A stretch of DNA of 64,000 nucleotides from Aquila chrysaetos chrysaetos (taxonomy: Eukaryota; Chordata; Aves; Accipitriformes; Accipitridae). Location: positions 26,115,606 through 26,179,605 of the forward strand of contig NC_044012.1 of assembly GCF_900496995.4 (NCBI RefSeq), in the 5' to 3' direction. Numbering within the stretch: the first letter of the stretch is position 1; each line of letters opens with the position of its first letter. A program made the translations under genes and the position numbers. The notes beneath the pieces were generated by a model, which searched no databases, was not told where the DNA came from, and saw nothing but the letters and a program-made list of their open reading frames with translations. Below, piece after piece: positions 12,456 to 61,559 of the stretch.

Positions 12456-12659
12456 TTTTTTTTTCTCCTTCATCTTCCTGCACCCAGTGCTTTGGGGTGA
12501 GGCAGCAGTTTTAGGTCCCAGCTCTGCTCCTGCCCAGTCTGGGTAGCTCAGAGATGCTGCAGTGGCAGGATGTGGCCTCAAGGGAGCACTCGGAGAGAAA
12601 CACATCCTGCCCTTGGAGGATCCTCGGTGCAGGACAAGGGCTTGGGGTTGGTGGGGGGC

Positions 12660-13105
12660 CATGGATTTAGGGTCTATAGGGCCAAGGGGGTGGGGTTTGA
12701 GGGGCCAAAGATTTGGGGTTTATGGGGTCCAAGGGTTTAGAGTTTGAGGGGTCCAAGGATTTGGGGTCTCTGGGGCCAAGAGTTTGGGCTTTACGGAGCC
12801 AAGGGTTTGGGATCTGTGAGGTCAGGGGGTTGGCGTCTATGGGCCAAGGATTTGGAATTTATGGGACAAACAGCTTGGAGTCTAATGGGGCCAAGGCTTC
12901 GTGATTTGTGGGGCCAAGGGTTTAGAGTTTGAGGGGTCCGAGGATTTGGGGTTTGTAGGGCCAAGGATTTGGGCTTTATGGAGCCAAGGGTTTGGGATCT
13001 GTGAGGTCAGGGGGTTGGGGTTTATAGGCCAAGGACTTGGAATTTATGGGGGCCCAGGGGTTTGGGGGACCAAGGGATTTGGGGTTTATGGGGGTGAAGG
13101 GCTTC
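12660..13105. repeat. G-rich minisatellite (about 20-25 bp units)
   Basis: About 20 imperfect tandem copies of a unit like ggggccaagggtttggggtt, with variants reading 'ggtctatggg' or 'gagtttgagg'. Guanine is strongly biased to the + strand, in runs of three to four. It begins about 220 bp after the VANGL2 poly(A) signal. The open frames across it are repeat artefacts. Confidence 0.9.
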
Positions 13106-14095
13106 GGATGAGCAGAGGGGAGCAGGGGCTGCTGCTCTACCTCCCCCCAGTGCAGATGGGAGAAATGCCCAAACCCTCCCCGGGGCAGGGAGGGGGGGGC
13201 AAGACCCAACCCCTTTGCTGGGGGGAACAAGTGCCCCCCATGCACAGCTCCCCGGGGCAGGGGCTGCTCCCAGCCTGCAGAGCCTCCACCTGCCCCGCGG
13301 CTGCTGCTGCCTGCAATCCCCTCACTGTGGCAATCGAGGTGGCGGATGTTTGGGCTCCTGCACACCCCCTCCAGCACCCACCTGCACACCCCCCCCAGCC
13401 ACCCCTGGGCCCCTGCACCCCTGCTTGTGGGGGGTCCCTCATGCAGCAATGGCACCACTGATTCACTGGGACCCAGCATCAGCGTTTCCTTTGGCTTTTA
13501 CACCTTTTCTCCCCTCATCTGAGCCCTGGGCTGCCCCCCACACACACACACACGCTGTGCCCCGCTCCTTGCAGGAGGATGTTTGCCGTGGGTGGGGGGA
13601 GCAGAGCAAGGGGAAACTGAGGCAGTGCAACTGCAGCCCTGTCTCCAGCACAAGGGACACAAGCTGGGGTGGAGGGGGTGCTAGCCCCCCTGCCAGGCTG
13701 TGCTGGGGCTCATGGACCCCCCCCCCAGCTCTTCATTTTCCTGGGGACATTCTTGCTTCTCCAAAGGTGTGTTACCCACAGGGGCATTGGGGCTCCCTGG
13801 GGTGATTATTTCCTGCCCTATCTTTGCCCTGTGATGAGTTCAACAGTCATCTGACAAGCTGCTGGCCCCAGGGTGGGGAGGGCGGGTTATTTCAGTCCTG
13901 TGTGGTTTTTTTTCCTTTCCGTGACTAACGGAGGCAGCACAAGAAACTCCTTCCCCCAGCCATCTCGGAGTGAGCTGGCTGCCAGCCGCCTCTGATCCGT
14001 TCCCAGACACGGGGGAAAAAGTGACGGCTGGGCTGGGCAGGGGGGGCTGCCTGTCCCAGCAGAGAAAGTTCAGGGGTTTTGGGGTGAAATCCTGC

Positions 14096-26073: not shown

Positions 26074-26137
26074 GGCAGGGGCTGCCTCCCCCTCTCAGCC
26101 AGAAATTCAGCTTTAAATAGTCCACTTGGAAGATCCT
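26074..26137. repeat. 64-bp direct repeat, copy 1
   Basis: This 64-base stretch, starting ggcaggggctgcctccccct, is repeated exactly at 26981-27044, 907 bases away. It matches no transposon I know. Confidence 0.92.
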
Positions 26138-26980: not shown

Positions 26981-27044
26981 GGCAGGGGCTGCCTCCCCCT
27001 CTCAGCCAGAAATTCAGCTTTAAATAGTCCACTTGGAAGATCCT
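26981..27044. repeat. 64-bp direct repeat, copy 2
   Basis: Exact second copy of 26074-26137 in the same orientation. Flanks differ on both sides. The rest of 25390-27851, between the CD84/SLAMF6-like start and the SLAMF1 stop, shows nothing else I recognise. Confidence 0.92.
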
Positions 27045-38055: not shown

Positions 38056-39692
38056 TTAAGCCAGACTGAGGAGCAAGAAGAGGGGGAGGAGGTGTCCCAG
38101 GACCACCAGCGTGCTGGTGGTGGTGCAGGCTGCAGCAGCGGAGGACTCACCTGGAAGCAAAGAGAGACCTGGGACATGGAGAGGGCTGTGGGCTGTCCAG
38201 CCCTGGCAGGGGACCCCCCCCGATCCCCTCCCCAGCTGGGCTCCTGCCACCCACCAGCCCACGGTGCAGGGGGAAAAGGCACCCACCACTCCTGACCCAT
38301 GGGCCACCTTCAGCCTTGCAGGGACTCACTGTCCTCAGGGTCATCACCACTGCTCTGGGGACCCTCCAAAGCCAAGGCCACCTTGCAGCCCATCCCACCC
38401 AAGTTTTGCCATTTCATGTGTGCACCGCAGGCAGTACCTGTCCAGGAGCAAGGGTGCCTGTAGGTCAGTGAGGCATTGTTGGAGGAGACAGGGTTGCTGA
38501 CTTTGCAGGTGTAGGTTTCTATCAAGGGGTCAAAGGAGACATGCTGCTCAGAGGCACCCACATCCTCCAGCGGGAGCTTGCTGGGGGGGATCCACTCGTA
38601 GGTCACCCCTTCGAGCCCCACTGAGCACTCCAGGGTGGCTTTGCACCATGTCGAGTCACCCCTGATCACGTTGGCGTTCACAGTGGGCTTCGGGACCAGC
38701 TCTGCAAGAGGCAGCGGGATGTCACAGCCACCCTGTCCCCCCACGGGGTGCTGGGACAACCCTCCCATTCTCCCAGCTCACCGTACACTGTCAGAAGGAT
38801 GTTTTCAATGTGCTCCTTGCCCACCTCATCCTCCAGGTACACCTGGTACATGCTGCTGTCATTTTTCTGCAGGCAGCTGATTTTTAGGGTGTTGTTGTTG
38901 GGGAAGAGCTCCAGGCGTCCCTTGTAGGTGCTGTTGGCATACCAGACCTTCCCCCTGCTGTCCCAGCTGGCGATCTTCACCGAGTTGTTGCGCCGCCAGT
39001 GGATTTGGTGATAGGAGGTCTGGGTTTGCAGTCTGGGGCTGAGATATGCCACCCCATGAACAGCCCCTACCACCTCCAATGGACCGTGTTGTGCCCAGGC
39101 TGCTGAGAAAGCAGAGACCGGTACTGCTTGGCCAGCCAGACACAGCCCACTCTTCCCTGGAACTCATCCCCAGGGACCTCCATTCCTCCCAGACACATAA
39201 AAAATGCAAATAACCCATTTGCTTACTAATTCCTAACAGCTTTGCGCTCTCTTGGCCTTGGAGGCATGTGGCATGAACAAGCCCTACAGCTGGTGGCGGA
39301 ATTTCCACCTCTCCACCCTGAGCATGCAACCACCCAGATGCCCCGGTGGTTTTTTTTTCTTTCCCCTCTTTGCTTTCATTTTTGGGGTCCTTTCACCGCT
39401 CCAGGCTCACCCAGAGCAGCCCCTCAACCCTCAGCTTGGTGGTGGTGATGCCAGGGGCTCCCGCAGGAAGGGAGCCGGTGGGTCACACCTTGGGCCCTGT
39501 GCTGGAATGGGAAAAGCCAGGGGAGAGAGCGGGGACAGGGAGGGTTTACCTGCAGGCACATCCCCAAGGTCCCCCACCATCCCCAAAGCCATCTCCCCCC
39601 CAACCCAGCACCCTCACCCCCAGAGAACCCACCGCCATACTTTGCCTGATGAAGAAGAGGAAGAGGAACACCCTTGTAAGCCCCATCATCAT
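38056..39692 (-). CDS. CD48: CD48, GPI-anchored SLAM-family ligand
   Basis: CD48 is the GPI-linked ligand of CD244 (and CD2 in some mammals). Exons are 39641-39692 (signal MMMGLTRVFLFLFFIRQ), 38782-39102 (V domain), 38438-38701 (C2 domain) and 38056-38150, giving 243 residues as in human CD48. Cleavage fits after TAWA. The V domain shows IASWDSRGKVWY and YKGRLELFPNNNTLKIS, close to human CD48, with the LQKNDSSMYQVYL step. The C2 domain has VTYEW, YTCKVSNPVSS and HPCSW. The last exon encodes a small-residue patch (ESSAAAACTTTS), a hydrophobic end (LVVLGHLLPLFLLLSLA) and no tail, the classic GPI signal. It is only about 1.6 kb from start to stop. The acceptor of the last exon is directly followed by GTGAGT. 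Confidence 0.93.
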
Positions 39693-42505: not shown

Positions 42506-45500
42506 TTAGCACGCCACAGCCCCAAAAAGCTGATGAGCTTTGGAGATACCCAGGTCTTGTCTTCCCACTGGTCCAGTGCCTGTTACCTCTACGTAGGCAG
42601 TGGAAACCAAAGCTGGGTCCAGCCTCTTCTTCTTGAGAGAAGACGACTGCGGAGCAGAGCAAAAACCTGCCGTTAGGCAACGCACGAGCAGGACAGTGAA
42701 CCCAGCACCTGGTTGATGAACCGAGGGGACCTGGGTTTCAGTGCCACTGCGGAGGGGCCGGGGTCACAGTGGGGCAACTTCACCTTCCTGTTGGGCTGAA
42801 CCGTGGAATAGATGGTGTAGCTTTTGGGCTCCTGAGGGTGGCTGGGTCCCTGCCAGGGAAAAACGGTCAAGATGCGCAAAGAAAAACAAATTTTGGGCAA
42901 AAGGGGTCATCTTGACAGTTGTTATAGATGCAATCAGCACAGGGGCTGCGCAGCCAAGCCCACAAGGCAGCTCCAATCCCCCCTCACCAGCACAGGACTG
43001 ACCCTACCTGCATTTTGGTGCAGATGACAGCGTAGATGGTGTTTCCTCCCATGGTGGCCTCACTGGTCCCATTCTGGGGGACAAAGCAACCCCAGACTGG
43101 TTAAAGGATGCAGCCTGGGGTGACAGACATTTCCAAACAGAGGTTCCATCCCTCCAGGCAGTGTGGGGAAGGGATGCCCAGGGACAGCCCTGGCACTTAC
43201 AGGGTTTTGGCCAGTTTGGGCTTTGCCCACCTCCTCGTAGACAGTCAGCATCTGCTCAACTTGTCCTGGGGGAGTTTGAAGGGTCAGTTTAAGACAGCTG
43301 ACATGTTAGAGCCCCCAGACTGGGGGGGTTCAGCCCTCAAGCAAAGCAAAGTCCCTTGGCAACTGGGAGGTTTTACTTTGTTGGCACCTGGCAGGGGCTG
43401 GGGAGGGATGGGCCAACTCAGAATAAAATGAATATCCAAACCCAAACAGTCCTCTAGACCCCATGGGACAAGGCCTCCAGGTTTGGGCACCAATGCTTGG
43501 GCTGCTGGGATACTTCATCTAGCTCATCAACCTGGACCACCCTGCATCAGCAGGGATGGGCAAAGACTTCATGCCTTGTGCAGCACCTGGCAGGGGGGTG
43601 ACAGTGCCCAGTGGCTTATCAGGCACCAGCCCCAGGACTGGAGAAGGAGAACCCCAGGGCCAGCACAGAGAGCATTAGGAGTGTCACAGCAGTCAGGAGG
43701 AGAGCAGGGGCTGCAAAGCCAAAAGCCCATGGCTGCCCATCCCACCAGCTACTGCACCAACCCCAGGGACAAACCTGCCAGGGGGTCCTTTGCTCGCTTC
43801 CTCCGCCAGTTGCAGGTGACAATGAGGGCTATGGAGATGGCCAGTGCCAGCCCCAGGGACACAGCCACTGCCCACCATGGAATGATGCTGGAATGCCCTG
43901 GGGAGGAAGGAAAGGAGAAGGGGACATCTTCGATGCAGGGCAGAGCCTTGAGCCATTTCTAAACACAGTCTCCATCACAGATCACAGCACAAGGGGAAGA
44001 GACCTGGCCAGGAAACCTCAGCCCCGGTTCTTTCCCAGGAGAGGAAGCTGGGCACATTTTGGCGTCAGTGTGACAGCCTCCATGGTTTCACTGGCCCAGG
44101 CAGGGAGATGAAGGGCCCCGAGAGAGGACTGGAAGCAGTGCGGCTTGCACGCCCCCTAAATCCTGCTTTTGCAGAGCTGAGGCTAATTGTCCCTGGGCAC
44201 CAAGGCTGGGTTGGGTGCCAGGTTGGATGCACAGGCTCAGAGCACTTGCGCGATCAATCCTGCCACATCCCCACCGCTGCCAGCTACGGTTCACAGCCAC
44301 GCAGCACCTTCCACGCTAGCTGCGCGCTGCACCGCGGCCCCAGCCCATGGCTACATCTCCCGCCTACTCATCCCAAACGGATTTAAGTCCCAAATCTCAT
44401 TTTGGAGCTGGAGGGGCAGAAACTCCCCCCCCCCAAACATTTGTCTCACAAACCTGAGGCCACGGCTTGGCAGGAAGCTACCGTGATGTTGGTGCTGTCT
44501 GTGCTCCAGCTCACCGGGTTGCTCACGTTGCAGCGGCAGATGGTGGGGCCAGCATCCCCATGGACCTCCAGGTGCAGCCAGGACTGGTGCTCCAGGGCTC
44601 CCCGGGGATCCCCACTGCAGGACCAGCTGTAGGAGACGTTGCCAGCACCAGACACAGTGCAGACCAGTGAGAGGTTGCACCAGCCCTGTTCCCGGTCCAG
44701 AACATGTGTCTCCAGGTGCAGCGAGTGGACGGGCTCTACGGGGACAGAGCTGGTGAGAGGGGACAGGAGGAACAGGCTGACGGGGTGATGGGGACCTGGC
44801 TACTCACCCCACACCGACACACGGAAGCACCGGGTAGTCAAGGTGCCTGATGTGTCCTCAAATTCTGCCTCATAGACCCCACTGTCTGCTGTGCTAACTG
44901 GGCTGATCTGCAGGGAGAAGGTCTCCTGCTGGAAAACAGCTCTCCCAAAAAAAGTACTGTTGGAGAATAGGTCAGCTTTATTCTTCTCAACCGTCAGGAT
45001 CCGCTGCTGGTATCCTGCATCCAGTCTCACTCTCCATGTGACCTTTGTCCATCCCTGCGGGGGTTTCTCCGGCTGCAGGTGCAGCGCTCCGTTGGCAGAC
45101 ACGGCTTGTTCCCAGCACTCCAGGGGTCCTAAAGCAGAAAGGCATGAGCGAGGGCTTGCAGCCCTGGGAGATGCTCCATGGCTGGGGAGGAGGCACAGCT
45201 GCTGGAGGCCACCTGTGTCCCCAGCACAGCCCCTCCTGCTCCTCAGGGGTGAGCTCAGCCTGATTCTCCATCATCATCCCCAAGATGGTGGTACCCTTTG
45301 CTCTGCACCAGCCCAGGTTGGTTGTGTGTCTGACTGCAGCAGCTGCTCTGGCCATGCATTGCAGATGCTCACGCAATAGCCTCTGCCCTGCCCTGAGCAG
45401 GGATGGTTGCAGACCCTCTAATCATAGCATCTGGTTGCTTGTTTGTGCCTCAGCTCCTTCCTTGCCCATCCAGCCTGGGGAACAGCAGGAATTTTGCCCG

Positions 45501-47477
45501 CTGGACCTTTTTTCTTGAGTTTCTGTGCTTGCCTCCCTCTTTTCAGTGCAGCCCCGGATGTCAAGGGCTCTGGCAGAGGCGAGATAAAAAAGCCCCTAAA
45601 ACAAACGAACACCCATGGCTGCCGGGGCCAAGTGTGCACACAACCTCATGGCTTCCTCACGGCTGCATGTGGTCAGAGCAGTGCCGGGAGCTGCCTCAGC
45701 CGTGGGTAGACTTTGTCCAGTACAGCCCCACACAATCACCTGCCTTGCAGCCCTCAGCAAAGCCCGGCTTGCACAGCCATCAAGGCAAGCATCAGCCTTC
45801 AGCGCTTGGCTTAGCCCACCCAGCCCACAGCCCCCGGCAAGGCTTTGTCTCCATGCAAGCGGTCCGAACACCGAGCCATGCTTGGAGGACACCTGTGGAG
45901 CCACCAGCTTTGCTATCTCCTGGCATAGCCAAAAGACCCCAAGCAGCTCCAGCTTAAACCTTGTCTTTGCAAAGCCGCAGGCATGAGGACTCCTGCCCTC
46001 ACCAGACCCTGGGGTGTAGAGAAGACATCCCCATACTCAACGGATCTAGGAATACAATCAGCCAGAGCAAGCAAAGGCAGAAACAGCCTCCCCTGGAGAA
46101 ATGAAGGGGCAGGCTCTATTTATCAGTTCCCACCCCTGATGGCTCACACCTGGGACCTGCAGCTCATTACAAAGGGGGCCCTTCCCACCACCCCAGGTAC
46201 TAAACAGCCTGCAAGAAATAGGGGTTATTACTTATTACTGTTTTGCAGGCATCTAAAACTGCAAGAAAGATGTAAGGGCACCTTAATGCCCTCATCCTAG
46301 GCTCCTGGAGCTGCCCTGGAGGGAGGGTGCTAGGGCAGTGGGTGTGCAGAGTCAGGGAACAAACAATGCAAAAACACACCCTGCAACCTGGAGGTGTGAT
46401 TGTAACCCACTGCCTACAGCTGGCATAAGTGCTGGGGTCAGGCCGGTGCAGCACGCTGCGGGTTAACCACGCCAGCACCTGCAAGGAGGTTTTGCAGCTC
46501 AGCTGAGCCTGTGCCTGCTGTGGGCTTTACTGCTTTAAGCAAGCAACACCCCATCTTGTGCACCCACCCCTGAGCAGCGAGTGCCCCCCAGCCCTGCACC
46601 ATCAGGGTGGGCAATGGGGTTGGGAGACGCATCTTAGGGTGCTGAGAGAGGGAAGGTGGAGGTGATACTTGCCTGCTCTCCCCATGAACAGGGAAGGGTG
46701 GCATGATGGGGGATACAGAAATGCAGCCAGGAGATGCTCCAGGCATCAAGCTGGCCCCCGAAATTGAGCGTTTGTCTGTTCCCCTCATGCAGGAGTTGCT
46801 GGTTTTAGGAAGAAGACCCTCAGCCACCACCAGCTCCACTGAAATCGTGGGGGAAAGGTGCCGTGTTTGTTCAGTGGAGAGACCTGGCCTTGAAAAGCTG
46901 CATTTCTGGGTGCAGGAAAGGTCAGGGCCGGCCACGGGGTGTGGGCTCAGCTCTGTCAGGGAAGTGACTTCTTTCAAGCAAACCCTGCATGGTGCAGGCA
47001 GCAATGCTGCCTGTGAAGGGGAATCGGCGCTGCCTGAAAGCTGTCCTGGTTCTACCTGCTCTGGGCAGGACTGGACACAGAAAACTGAAGAAAAGCCAAA
47101 AAAAACCCAAGCTAGCCCCACTCCATCTCCCGAGGGACCCCAAGCCCGGCTCACTGCCCATGACCCCGCAGCCCTCCCTGGCCTGAGTTCCTGTGGATGC
47201 CTTCACGCCAGCAGCACAGTCAGCCTTTCTCCAGCACCCAGCTCCCTGGGGCAGGCAGCGGCAACACCTTCCCATCCGTGCATCCCTCCTGCCCTGCCTG
47301 CGAATGCTGCCAGCACCCAGGCAGCGAGCCCCCATCCTCCCAGTGAGCACCCATCCTCCCAGCGAGCCTAGCACCGCGTTCCCCTTCCTCACCTTGGCCG
47401 CTGGCCGCAGCCAGCAGCACCAGGCAGAGCAGCACCGACGGTGCCAGTGGGCACCAGGGATCCCGATCCCAGTGCAT
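42506..47477 (-). CDS. CD244: CD244 (2B4, SLAMF4), receptor for CD48
   Basis: NK- and T-cell receptor for CD48. Exons are 47393-47477 (signal, APSVLLCLVLLAAASGQ), 44808-45128 (V domain), 44454-44735 (C2 domain), 43775-43897 (TM, WWAVAVSLGLALAISIALIV, then RRKR), 43201-43265, 43008-43073, 42784-42849 and 42646 down to a TAA at 42506. That is 382 residues (human 370). The C2 domain has NVSYSW and CNVSNPVSW as in human CD244. Each tail exon carries one ITSM: TVYEEV, TIYAVI, TIYSTV and TAYVEV, matching the four of human CD244 in number and order. The last exon could instead splice at GAG/GTAACA (about 42589) to a further exon near 42488. The Ig exons lie in an inverted duplication shared with 48980-49951. 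Confidence 0.93.
44195..45195. repeat. Inverted duplication, left arm
   Basis: These 1001 bases pair in inverted orientation with 48980-49951. By eye I count about six substitutions and one 29-base gap, in introns and exons alike. The arm runs from CD244 intron 1 to intron 3 and contains both Ig exons. The spacer between arms is 3784 bases. Confidence 0.93.
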
Positions 47478-48142
47478 CTTCAAATGGCACCCGAGCGAGC
47501 TGCCTTGCAGCCAGAGAGGTGCAAAACCCCTCAGAGCTGGCGACTGTCCCACAGCAACTTCCTCTCCCGCCTGCGGTTCCTTTGCACCCTCCGCCTCTAT
47601 GTGTTATCCTCCACACGGCCACTCTTGACCCCACTGTCACACCCTCCCAAGCCCAACTCTCCCCTGTGGTGGACGCCAGCATGGATGCCAGGGTACCCCG
47701 AGTCCCCGTGGGGCAGAACACAGTGGGGAAGGATGGGCTGCTGGCTGCCCCGGCAAGTTCGGCTACAGGGCTGGGTGGCTGCAAACCTCAGAGGAAACTA
47801 ATTTTAATTACCCAAGGGGGTGGGGGCAGGTTTGAGGCGTTTTGCTTTCCCTTTGCAGCTTGACTTTGGAGCTGCACGGCAGCACTTTGTAATGTGCGGA
47901 TGTGTCCAGCACCCTGACGGCAGGCCAGGGACAGCCCTGAGCAGCAGGATTCGGCCCATTGGGTAGCAGTGGTCAGCCCAAAAACCTGTGTGCCTTGTGG
48001 TCAGGGAGTTGGGGAGCAGTGCAGCCCAGCCGGGGGGGCTCCCAGGAGATGTGGGGGGCAGCGGATGCGGAGCGGGGGCTGATCCTCCCCCTGTGCCTGC
48101 CCTGATCTCCAACCCCAATTCCCACCTTTCCCTGGCACAGCA
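47478..48142. promoter_or_regulatory. Divergent promoter region of CD244 and its opposite-facing partner
   Basis: Only 665 bases separate the two start codons. Near the CD244 side are an ETS/PU.1 core (ACTTCCTC, 47557-47564) and a RUNX core (TGCGGT, 47572-47577), 8 bases apart. No TATA box is evident. A shared bidirectional promoter is an inference from spacing and motifs. Confidence 0.45.
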
Positions 48143-50155
48143 ATGGAGCATATCATCCTTCTCCTCTTCATCTCCCTCTTCTTCCTCTGCCGAGCCCAAG
48201 GTAAGCGTGGGTGGGTGGCCCCCAGCTCTGCCACGGGAGCTGCAATGAGTTGTGTCCAGCCTCTGTGCCAGGCATCCACATGGGGCTGGTATGTTCCTTG
48301 GGAAACTGCTTTTAAAAGCATGCCCAGGGTCAGTGCTTGCTCTGGGTTGGTTTTTGGGTTTTTTTCCTTGTGCAAACTAGCAAGCAAACAGCTTGTCATG
48401 AGATCAGAGCAGTCTCTCAGGTTGTCAGGTGAGGGAAAAAAAAACAAACCCACAAACCGAAGCCAAAAGCAAAAAGCTCTTTTTGAGCATCAGAAAACCT
48501 CAGCACTACAGGTATCACTTAAATTGGGCCATTGAGAAGGAATTTTTATGAAAAATTGTCCATTTTTTTAAGAAAAGGCTGCGTGTCTAGGAAAAAATGC
48601 TCTGCTTGTGAGGATTTGACTTGCTGTAGGAGGCACGGGGGAGGGCAGTGAGCGAGAGCTTTGTCAGTGCTTCCCCTGTCTTTGGAAAATGGAATCCCCT
48701 TTATGTTAGCCTTAGATAACAAATATATATTGGGAGAAAATAACCCCCACATGCACTGTTTGGAGTAGCTGTTTCTTACCAACCAAAGGTAAGCAGAGGC
48801 GGAGGATGAGAGAGAAGGAGGAACTGAAAACAGCTTGCCAAACTGTGCTCAGCCGCACCAGGGGCAACCAAGGGATGGCTGAAGGCGCACAATGCCAGAG
48901 GCTTTGAGCCCCAGATCACCAGGGACGGACAGAGCCGGGCTGTGCCAGGTGTGGGACCCCACAGTGGTGGCGGTGACCATGCCCCCTCCCCAGCCATGGA
49001 GCATCTCCCAGGGCTGCAAGCCCTCGCTCATGCCTTTCTGCTTTAGGACCCCTGGAGTGCTGGGAACAAGCCGTGTCTGCCAACGGAGCGCTGCACCTGC
49101 AGCCGGAGAAACCCCCGCAGGGATGGACAAAGGTCACATGGAGAGTGAGACTGGATGCAGGATACCAGCAGCGGATCCTGACGGTTGAGAAGAATAAAGC
49201 TGACCTATTCTCCAACAGTACTTTTTTTGGGAGAGCTGTTTTCCAGCAGGAGACCTTCTCCCTGCGGATCAGCCCGGTTAGAATTTGAGGACACATCAGG
49301 CACCTTGACTACCCGGTGCTTCCGTGTGTCGGTGTGGGGTGAGTAGCCAGGTCCCCATCACCCCGTCAGCCTGTTCCTCCTGTCCCCTCTCACCAGCTCT
49401 GTCCCCGTAGAGCCCGTCCACTCGCTGCACCTGGAGACACATGTCCTGGACCGGGAACAGGGCTGGTGCAACCTCTCACTGGTCTGCACTGTGTCTGGTG
49501 CTGGCAACGTCTCCTACAGCTGGTCCTGCAGTGGGGATCCCCGGGGAGCCCTGGAGCACCAGTCCTGGCTGCACCTGGAGGTCCATGGGGATGCTGGCCC
49601 CACCATCTGCCGCTGCAACGTGAGCAACCCGGTGAGCTGGAGCACAGACAGCACCAACATCACGGTAGCTTCCTGCCAAGCCGTGGCCTCAGGTTTGTGA
49701 GACAAATGTTTGGGGGGGGGGAGTTTCTGCCCCTCCAGCTCCAAAATGAGATTTGGGACTTAAATCCGTTTGGGATGAGTAGGCGGGAGATGTAGCCATG
49801 GGCTGGGGCCGCGGTGCAGCGCGCAGCTAGCGTGGAAGGTGCTGCGTGGCTGTGAACCGTAGCTGGCAGCGGTGGGGATGTGGCAGGATTGATCGCGCAA
49901 GTGCTCTGAGCCTGTGCATCCAACCTGGCACCCAACCCAGCCTCGGTGCCCCCCGGGGGGGGCAGGGGATGTCCCCCCCATCCCCAGCGTCTCTCTCTAT
50001 TTGCAGGTGTTTCCTTGTCCTACTGCAGAGTGAAAGGGCTCCTCTGGCTGCTGCTGCTGGGCAGCCTGGTCGCAGCCGTGGCCATCACACACGTCCTTGT
50101 CTGGCAGCAAGAACCCCCTTCCCACCTTGCTCCCGGCTCTTTGGGTACTGGGTAG
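48143..50155 (+). pseudogene. CD244-like partner gene, chimeric, probably disabled
   Basis: Exon 1 (48143-48200) encodes its own signal peptide (MEHIILLLFISLFFLCRAQ), unlike that of CD244. The V exon (49047-49338) and C2 exon (49411-49692) are almost identical to those of CD244. The V exon lacks 29 bases relative to CD244, between 49280 and 49281. The loss removes the DSGVY strand-F region, shifts the frame and gives an early TGA. The last exon (50007-50155) encodes a membrane span (GLLWLLLLGSLVAAVAITHV) and a tail of about 18 residues with no ITSM. An ATTAAA signal lies at 50289-50294. All exons keep phase 1, so skipping the V exon would leave a C2-only protein in frame. The original receptor class is unknown. 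It could have been a CD244-like receptor with a short tail, or a decoy. Confidence 0.7.
48980..49951. repeat. Inverted duplication, right arm
   Basis: These 972 bases are the reverse complement of 44195-45195 apart from a few substitutions and the 29-base gap, which accounts exactly for the length difference. The borders fall in introns 1 and 3 of the host gene, so its first and last exons lie outside the arm. Confidence 0.93.
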
Positions 50156-50689
50156 GACCCCTCAAAGGGGGAGCCTGCAAAGCAGCCACCGGACCCCACC
50201 CCACTTTGTGCATCACATCAGGCCTCAAAACTCCCCAACAAATGAGCTGCTTTTAACTGCAGAGAGCTGTTAACCCACCTGAGCATGGATTAAAGAAAAA
50301 TCTGCTTCTTTTTTTTTCCCCCAGTATTCTGTATTTTGGGTTCATGAACAAGTTCTGGGCTGTTCTGTGGAGAGGACAGATCAAATTGGCTGCGGGGGTT
50401 TTCACCCCAAAAGATGAGGCTCCCCTCCAACAGCCCAGGGCAAAGCTTCCCCCCACCCCAGAAGAGACCCCAGGGGTGGTGTTGTCCCTCCGGTTTTGAG
50501 CAAACAGGGACACACTCCCCTCCCTACCGTCCTGCCAGACTCCTCGCTCTGGGATGGAGCCATCCCGATGGGATCGGGATGCAGGGACTGAGGAGCATTA
50601 CCCCACCCCAGCCTTGCGTTAACTCTCCTTCCCATCCTTTAACAAAGCAGCTCGGCGTGTCACCCACTCATCGCCGGAGGTTTATTCCC

Positions 50690-53273: not shown

Positions 53274-54494
53274 ATGCAAGGAGGGGACATGGTTGGAGCC
53301 AGGGTCACACTTCTTTGCTGCATGCTGCTAGCTGCAGATGGGGGTAAGGATGCTCCTAGAGCTGGGGTGGGCAGTTTGCCGCAGGCAGGGCTGGGATGCT
53401 GGGACAGGTGGGCTGGAGCACCCTGGGATGCTTCAGGGTTTTGGGGTGTTTTTTTCTGGGGGGGGGGTGGAGACCACCCTTGCCCTTACAATCGCCACTG
53501 CTGTGGTCATGTCCCCCCCGCAACCGTCTCGTGGCACCCGGTGCCTTGCAGGTCTGTGTCTCTGTTGCGATATTGAGTTGCTGAAGGGCCTGAAGGGATA
53601 GTCCCTGTCCTTCCCGGCCCTGCACCCCTTCTTTGCAGATATCACACGGGTCACCTGGAGGTCCCAGGGGACCCACATCACTGAGGCCAAGCCCAAGGAG
53701 AAGAGGTTCACCATCGACTACGTGCCCAGGTTCTGTGGCCGGCTGTTCATCCACCCCACCAATCTGTCACTGGAGATCGGACCACTGAAGCTGGGGGACA
53801 GCGGAAAGTACGAGGTGGTCATGGACACCTTGTCTGACCCCACCAAACCAAAGACATTTTCCTACTTATTGAGGGTTCATGGTAAGTCCAAGGATGGAGG
53901 GAGGAGGGTTGTGGGGACCAGGCTTGGGTTCAGTCCACCCTGGGCATGTCCCCATGGGGGTGGGCTTTCCCACTGTGTAAGGCCCCCAGCCCTGAGCCCA
54001 CCCATCCCATGACATCTCCCCCTTGACCATGCAGAGGAGCCCAGGATGAGCATGGTCAGTGGAGAAATTCCCCTTCCTCTTTCGGTGCCTGCGCTCATCC
54101 GCTGCACCCACTGCACCCAGCCCCGGTGACACCCAGCCCCCCCCCCAAGGTGGGGGTCGGTCCTTGGTCCCCAAAACAGCCACTGGCCCCATGGCTCATG
54201 CCATGCCCTGTGCCCGTAGGAGGCTTGCCCATGACGCCAGCCGGGACCAGTGACACGGGAGCACAGAGCAGGAGCACCGTGGGACCTAGGGGAGTGACCG
54301 AGCCTGATGCAGGAGATACCGGGACACAGGGCAGAGGTGGGGGGCAGCCCCCAGGCGGCAGCAGTGGGCCGGAGGCATGTGGGGTGCAGGACTACAACTG
54401 TGTGGTGAAAGGGTATCTCATGGCCACCGTCTTCGGGCTACTGCTGATGCTGGTAGCCACTGTTCACATCGTGACCAGGGACAAAGGCACCTAG
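53274..54494 (+). pseudogene. SLAMF8-like V-domain gene, probably degenerate
   Basis: Exon 1 (53274-53343) encodes a signal peptide (MVGARVTLLCCMLLAADG), phase 1. The full-length V exon would be 53552-53881 (330 bases, the family size). It reads through DITRVTWRSQGTHI and CGRLFIHPTNLSLEIGPL, then GDSGKYEVVM, which best matches SLAMF8 (GRAQLHSNLSLELGPL in human). It has an in-frame TAG at 53599-53601. A second acceptor at 53638 keeps phase and skips the stop, but would remove the first strands of the domain. At 54035 a possible C2 remnant opens with EEPRMSMVSGEIP and soon stops. The last exon (54220-54494) encodes a Gly/Thr stalk, a span (YLMATVFGLLLMLVATVHIV) and TRDKGT. AATAAA follows at 54660-54665. 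Either a fading gene or a remodelled one-domain receptor. Confidence 0.65.
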
Positions 54495-55395: not shown

Positions 55396-55757
55396 AGTCA
55401 GGCAGCCATCCAGGGTCAAGCACCGATCCCGGGGTCCCACAGTGATCCCGGAGTCAGGCAGCAATCCCAGGCTCAAGCAGGAATCCCAGGGTCCCTCAGC
55501 AATCCCAAGGTCAAGCAGCAATCCCGTGGTCCCGCAGTGATCCCAGGGTCGGGCAGTGATCCCAGGGTCAAGCAGCAATCCTGGGGTCAGGCAGCGATCC
55601 CGGGGTCAGGCAGCGATCCCAGGGTCAGGCAGTGATTCCGGTGTCAGGCAGTGATCCCGGGGTCAGGCAGTGATCCCCGGGGTCCCACACTGATCCCAGG
55701 GACAGGCAGCGATCCCAGGGTCAGGCAGTGATCCCAGGGTCAGGCAGTGATCCCAGC
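55396..55757. repeat. Minisatellite, 19-bp unit
   Basis: About 19 imperfect copies of a unit like gatcccagggtcaggcagt, with variants 'caagcagcaatcc' and 'cccacagtgatcc'. Open frames here are repeat artefacts. Confidence 0.95.
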
Positions 55758-60799: not shown

Positions 60800-61545
60800 T
60801 ACTCACAGAGACATGCACACTTCCCCCAACACGCATGCACAGATGCACACACACATGGATGCACACAGAAGCACAAACCCAGCCCGGCATGCTCATGTAC
60901 GTGTAGACACCCCAACATGGACACGCACGCATGCACACCAGCGTGCGACCATGTGCACGCACACAGGCGTGCCAACGGGCACACACAAAAAGCCCCCAAC
61001 ATACAAACACACGAACACAGACACCCCGACATGCATGCACACATGCACACACATGCAAGCACCCCGGCGTGCAAAAGAACATGTGGATGCACACCCCAAC
61101 GTGCATGCATGCACACCCCAACATGCACACACATGCAAGCACACACCCCAACATACGTGTATGCACCACAACACACATGTACACACCCCGACATGCACAC
61201 CCACGCAAATGCACATCCCAACATGCATGTACGCACCCCAACATGCATATATGCACCCCAACATGCACACCCAAGCAAACGCACACCCCAACATGCATGT
61301 ACGCACCCCAACATGCATGTATGTACCCCAACATATGCGTACACACCCCGACATGTATGTACGCGCCCCAACATGCATGTACGCACCCCAACATGTATGT
61401 ACACATGCCAACATGCATATATGCACCCCGACATGCATGTACGTACCCCAACATGCATGTACACACCCCGACATGCATGTACACACCCCGACATGCATGC
61501 ACCCCCCCACGCGCGCGCACACACACACAAATTCACCCCCCAACA
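60800..61545. repeat. Minisatellite of the caccccaacatgcatgtacg type
   Basis: More than 25 imperfect copies, most clearly at 61080-61500, of a unit of about 20-24 bases that pairs 'accccaacatgc' with a TGTACGCA/ACACGCA-like alternating purine-pyrimidine step. The long open frames on both strands here arise from the repeat and are not genes. Confidence 0.95.
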
Positions 61546-61559
61546 TGCACGCGTAGAGC

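Follow-up and report, generated by a model that had tools for sequence, protein, structure and literature searches.

The SIGLEC11 and SIGLEC16 (SIGLEC16P) genes of primates lie head to head about 9 kb apart, and their binding-domain exons have been homogenised by gene conversion; the SIGLEC16P allele carries a 4-base deletion in exon 2 and yields a very short product, if any (PMC5701461). Reptilian CEACAM1 and its putative decoys likewise face in opposite directions and have an alike binding exon, accompanied in some species by alike flanking introns, which is explained by gene conversion (PMC13278318, preprint); the abstract of that study reports no decoy receptors for birds (PMC13278318). 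CD244 is part of a third described case, the Itln locus of 129 mice, where it has undergone tandem and inverted duplications, with most of the duplicates non-functional and one predicted to be a soluble variant (PMC3048546).

The locus described here lies in a window of 64,000 nucleotides of the golden eagle genome, numbered from its first letter, and consists of a CD244-type gene and an opposite-facing neighbour, the latter a chimeric and probably non-functional partner in what reads as a head-to-head immune receptor pair. We regard SIGLEC11/SIGLEC16P as the closest precedent: both pairs are head to head with alike binding exons, and in both the partner lacks signalling motifs and carries a small deletion (PMC5701461). 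The primate genes differ from the eagle pair in that they encode Siglecs, in that conversion was shown across several primates, and in that functional alleles are described (PMC5701461). The eagle neighbour, compared with SIGLEC16, belongs to the SLAM family, is known from one genome, and has a membrane exon without an evident adaptor-pairing residue. The opposite-facing orientation and the alike binding exon are shared with reptilian CEACAM1 and its putative decoys, which unlike the eagle genes are CEACAM family members with endocytic motifs or membrane exon read-through in the putative decoys (PMC13278318). The 129 mouse locus shares with the eagle an inverted duplication involving CD244 and a copy that is non-functional or, in the eagle, probably so, but its duplicated segments carry Itln genes together with CD244, expand the locus by about 433 kbp and involve no swap confined to the V and C2 exons (PMC3048546). 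Among the matches listed from the open-licence literature, none is a report of this avian chimera.

Two arms of an inverted repeat, at positions 44195-45195 and 48980-49951 and separated by a spacer of 3784 bases, form the core of the locus. The left arm, on the minus strand, comprises CD244-type V and C2 exons together with intron 2, the last part of intron 1 and the beginning of intron 3, while the right arm is a near-identical plus-strand copy, 29 bases shorter, within the opposite-facing gene. In a global alignment the arms differ by five substitutions in 972 aligned bases and by one gap of 29 bases. The arm edges are sharp in this alignment, and the sequences flanking the arms differ. The earlier note on this DNA had given the same arm lengths, coordinates and gap, which stand, whereas its count of about six differing positions is revised to five substitutions; its further observations, that introns and exons are equally affected (two substitutions in 398 and three in 574 aligned bases, respectively) and that the repeat has its borders in introns 1 and 3 of each gene, agree with the alignment and with both splice models. 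A DNA search of the whole assembly (1.23 Gb, 144 contigs) located the block at two places, the second with E = 0 and 97% identity over 1001 bases, and retrieved no third copy, counts from this search being lower bounds for repeats. Since the block was found at just these two places, the second at E = 0, chance similarity of the arms was rejected.

The divergence between the arms amounts to 0.51% (Poisson range 0.17-1.2%), and a value of about 0.5% points to copying, or a last homogenisation, in recent times. At an avian substitution rate of 1.9e-9 per site per year, the copy would date to approximately 1.4 million years ago (0.4-3.2); rates of 1.2e-9 and 2.5e-9 would give 2.1 and 1.0 million years, all of these dates being rough. 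Each of the five differences is a transition that has A/T on the CD244 side and G/C on the neighbour's, and two of them lie within 15 bases of the 29-base gap. A base bias between left and right arm was considered and dropped, as the two-sided value of 0.06 with five sites is not significant.

The gene containing the left arm is modelled on the minus strand with a signal peptide exon (exon 1, 47393-47477), an open V exon (44808-45128), an open C2 exon (44454-44735) and a transmembrane exon (43775-43897). Beyond the transmembrane exon, a cytoplasmic region whose exon borders were not modelled (42584-43245) encodes four ITSM-like motifs of the form TxYxxV/I, namely TVYEEV, TIYAVI, TIYSTV and TAYVEV, with first bases at 43245, 43040, 42816 and 42601, respectively; four ITSMs are typical of CD244. 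A Pfam scan of five SLAM-like V exons with the Receptor_2B4 profile (PF11465) placed the left V exon alone above the cut-off of 21, at 28.6 bits, the others scoring 15.4 and 12.9 or, in two cases, giving no match. Because only the left V exon passes, the repeat block is taken to be of CD244 type, and on these sequence features the left gene is CD244-like (SLAMF4). A PDB sequence search gave weak matches, led by SLAMF6 (E 6.4e-5) and followed mostly by antibody chains; 2B4 was represented by two sequences, at E 0.1 and 0.11.

The neighbour lies head to head with the CD244-type gene and is modelled on the plus strand with in-phase splice sites and with signal and membrane exons of its own. Exon 1 (48143-48200, phase 1) encodes a signal-peptide-like sequence, MEHIILLLFISLFFLCRAQ; it is followed by the V exon (49047-49338), an intact C2 exon identical at the protein level to that of CD244 (49411-49692), and a membrane exon with a short tail and a stop but without an ITSM (50007-50155). 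A possible polyA signal, ATTAAA, is located at 50289. No ITSM-like motif was detected on the plus strand past the V exon among ORFs of 25 residues or more.

The 29-base gap between the arms sits in the neighbour's V exon, where it shows 2 bases of microhomology. Its length is not divisible by three, and a TGA (49286-49288) comes directly after it, 50 bases short of the exon end; the exon is closed in all three frames. The missing segment encodes the F-strand motif (DSGxY-like), and since the left V exon has this motif and it can still be recognised in all three paralogous V exons of the alignment, the loss is on the right copy's side. The Pfam 2B4 match of the left copy is gone as well: with E values up to 1 admitted, neither of the two V fragments of the right copy matches any Pfam family. 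The frameshift and stop would leave a V domain without its last part and place everything downstream, including the membrane exon, out of frame. The TGA precedes two further exon junctions, and a transcript with a premature stop of this kind is expected to undergo nonsense-mediated decay.

The earlier note had seen in the locus a recent inverted duplication, by which the V and C2 exons of CD244 came to lie in a gene that faces the other way, has no ITSM and differs in its signal and membrane exons; the alignment, splice models and motif scan bear this out. Its proposal that the neighbour thereby gained the CD48-binding face of CD244 is not supported, because the V exon carries the frameshifting deletion and premature stop; as assembled, the neighbour is predicted to be incapable of displaying this face. 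The combination of shared binding exons with a different signalling part is present at the DNA level and absent at the protein level. Unlike a CD244 gene, the neighbour as assembled shows neither an intact 2B4-type V domain nor ITSMs, and in the 29-base deletion and TGA it has the disabling lesion of a pseudogene. The decoy or paired receptor suggested in the note is therefore broken in this assembly and would need an intact allele elsewhere in the population or an assembly error in those 29 bases. From its predicted exons, the best reading of the neighbour is a chimeric gene of recent origin that the deletion in the copied V exon has made a pseudogene or null allele.

Further along the plus strand lies a third ITSM-free SLAM-like gene (53274-54494; ends and exons assigned by eye), whose membrane exon is possibly related to that of the neighbour. 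By eye it seems to be without a normal C2 exon, showing about 30 open residues past the V exon and a stop before the membrane exon. The membrane exons of the neighbour and the third gene align without gaps over 31 residues with a score of 50, reached by 0/500 shuffles, whereas neighbour and CD244 score 27, reached by 93/500. At the DNA level the membrane exons of neighbour and third gene score 19.5 against 12.5 +/- 2.3 for shuffles, 3/300 of which reach this value; those of neighbour and CD244 are not clearly alike (7/200 plain shuffles). With the third gene's exon as the query, that of the neighbour ranked top of the other 1553 ORFs of the window (score 50, the next 34; phmmer E 0.047). In the reverse search the third gene's exon was the third non-self ORF by score (54, 52, 50) and the second by phmmer (E 0.14), after another ORF at E 0.045, and it was absent from the results of a whole-assembly search that used the neighbour's membrane exon as query. 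Given the weak reverse search and the missing whole-assembly match, kinship of the neighbour's membrane exon with the third gene's rather than with CD244's is suggestive. As the exon is closer to the third gene's than to CD244's, the CD244 ectodomain seems to have been pasted into an older gene, and the simplest reading would be an old ITSM-free gene with its V and C2 exons overwritten by those of CD244.

The pair is part of a SLAM-family cluster spanning window positions 19-54 kb, in which minus-strand V/C2 exons are followed by CD244 and then by the two plus-strand ITSM-free genes. The minus-strand exons are located at 22.5-23.3 kb, 30.7-31.9 kb and 38.3-39.2 kb. ITSM-like motifs occur at 19.3 and 19.7 kb, listed with the first of these exon groups, and at 28.8 kb, listed with the second, as candidate gene pairings. 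The last group has a GPI-type end and belongs to a gene adjoining CD244 (38056-39692, minus strand) that, with its ends and name assigned by inspection and inference, is CD48-like and a candidate ligand of CD244. Going by the title of a 2014 paper by Straub et al., chicken SLAMF4 reportedly binds SLAMF2. Outside the window, at about 26207.7-26216.4 kb of the contig, weak matches with E values from 0.15 to 3.4 mark additional plus-strand SLAM-like V and C2 exons; the ITSM-like motif TVYEQI occurs in one of these regions. The window also contains imperfect direct self-similarity resembling tandem arrays at 12632-13109, 55397-55756 and 60899-61549, and an exact 64-base direct repeat (26074-26137 and 26981-27044) about 0.9 kb apart.

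The history that we consider probable is that an inverted copy of the CD244 V-C2 block took the place of the V and C2 exons of an older gene, and that a deletion then turned the product into a pseudogene or null allele. Under this scenario, inverted-repeat gene conversion or templated break repair would have carried a 1-kb block with the CD244 V and C2 exons into an older SLAM-like gene, head to head with CD244 and free of ITSMs, at the expense of the recipient's own V and C2 exons. The direction, from CD244 to the neighbour, we infer from one Pfam profile. The 29-base deletion, with its microhomology, would then have broken the copied V exon in the assembled haplotype, so that the neighbour's transcript is presumably lost to nonsense-mediated decay or gives at most a C2-only protein through skipping of the V exon. 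This last outcome, a C2-only membrane protein, has in its favour that the V-skipped model joins phase 1 to phase 1 and stays in frame, with 162 open residues before it reaches a stop in the membrane exon; against it, ligand binding in the SLAM family is recognised as the role of the V domain, and we consider such a product very improbable.

A whole-gene inverted duplicate of CD244 was rejected, as the signal exons (38/200 plain shuffles), the promoter stretches (16/200) and the rest of intron 3 (55/100) are not clearly alike. A less probable but serious reading, overlapping with the preferred one, is that the two genes are old head-to-head paralogs whose V-C2 block has been kept alike by repeated gene conversion, much as in SIGLEC11/SIGLEC16, the frameshift being one recent loss. 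Opposite orientation and the 3784-base spacer suit intrachromosomal conversion, and weak collinear similarity extends over about 130 bases directly upstream of the arms. Plain shuffles gave higher standings to the upstream flank (2/200), the whole of intron 1 (3/100) and the downstream flank (11/200); dinucleotide shuffles over 800 bases removed the flank signals, and the nearest 150 upstream bases kept theirs (27.5 against 16.3 +/- 2.9, reached by 1/300). This upstream score was matched by 2/1725 random pairs and by 2/1100 and 4/846 GC-matched segments of the window, the query's own overlapping segments being among those counted; a separate anchored test gave 0-5 of 257-470 null pairs under two scoring schemes. 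A third, stricter scheme nevertheless returned a score of 0 and no signal, the upstream comparison over 800 bases is ordinary (144/300 dinucleotide shuffles reach it), and the downstream flank has no signal over either 800 (182/300) or 150 bases (298/300). The signal exons, the rest of intron 3 and the membrane exon protein likewise retain no recognisable likeness to CD244, and the sharp arm edges also count against conversion between old paralogs.

The remaining readings turn on the deletion, which could instead be present in heterozygous form or stem from an error of assembly. If an intact neighbour allele exists, it would present the V-C2 face of CD244 without ITSMs as a functional decoy or paired receptor, and the assembled haplotype would be a segregating null; the neighbour's gene model is open apart from the deletion, and for SIGLEC16 both functional and 4-base-deleted alleles are described (PMC5701461). 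The sole haplotype seen is broken, though, and by inspection the membrane segment contains a histidine and no lysine or arginine, which argues against an activating partner but not against a decoy; this reading is unlikely. Membrane lysine or arginine residues pair with ITAM adaptors. We would be similarly surprised to find the bolder form of the idea, a segregating CD244-domain "clone" on the ITSM-free gene that acts in some haplotypes as a CD48-binding decoy, in the vicinity of both CD244 and the ligand gene, and is null here, an avian counterpart of SIGLEC16/SIGLEC16P. Still less likely is an assembly artefact, in which the deletion or the high arm identity would be a consensus or polishing error caused by misplacing reads from one arm onto the other. 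Near-identical arms may indeed be mixed by short-read polishing, but the flanks of the arms differ, the window contains no N, and 29 bases with clean 2-base microhomology are unlike the usual consensus errors of 1-2 bases.

Inverted copying followed by deletion remains our preferred history. The locus looks like a clear recent transfer of ligand-binding exons between head-to-head immune receptor genes, in which the probable ligand gene lies close by and the recipient has been silenced by a small deletion. In practice, annotation or short-read RNA mapping could credit the neighbour with reads from CD244, although as assembled this gene is unable to make the protein. Together with the SIGLEC11/16 and CEACAM pairs, the eagle pair is in keeping with the notion that genes in opposite orientation are prone to repeated exon swaps, a frameshifted partner being one outcome.
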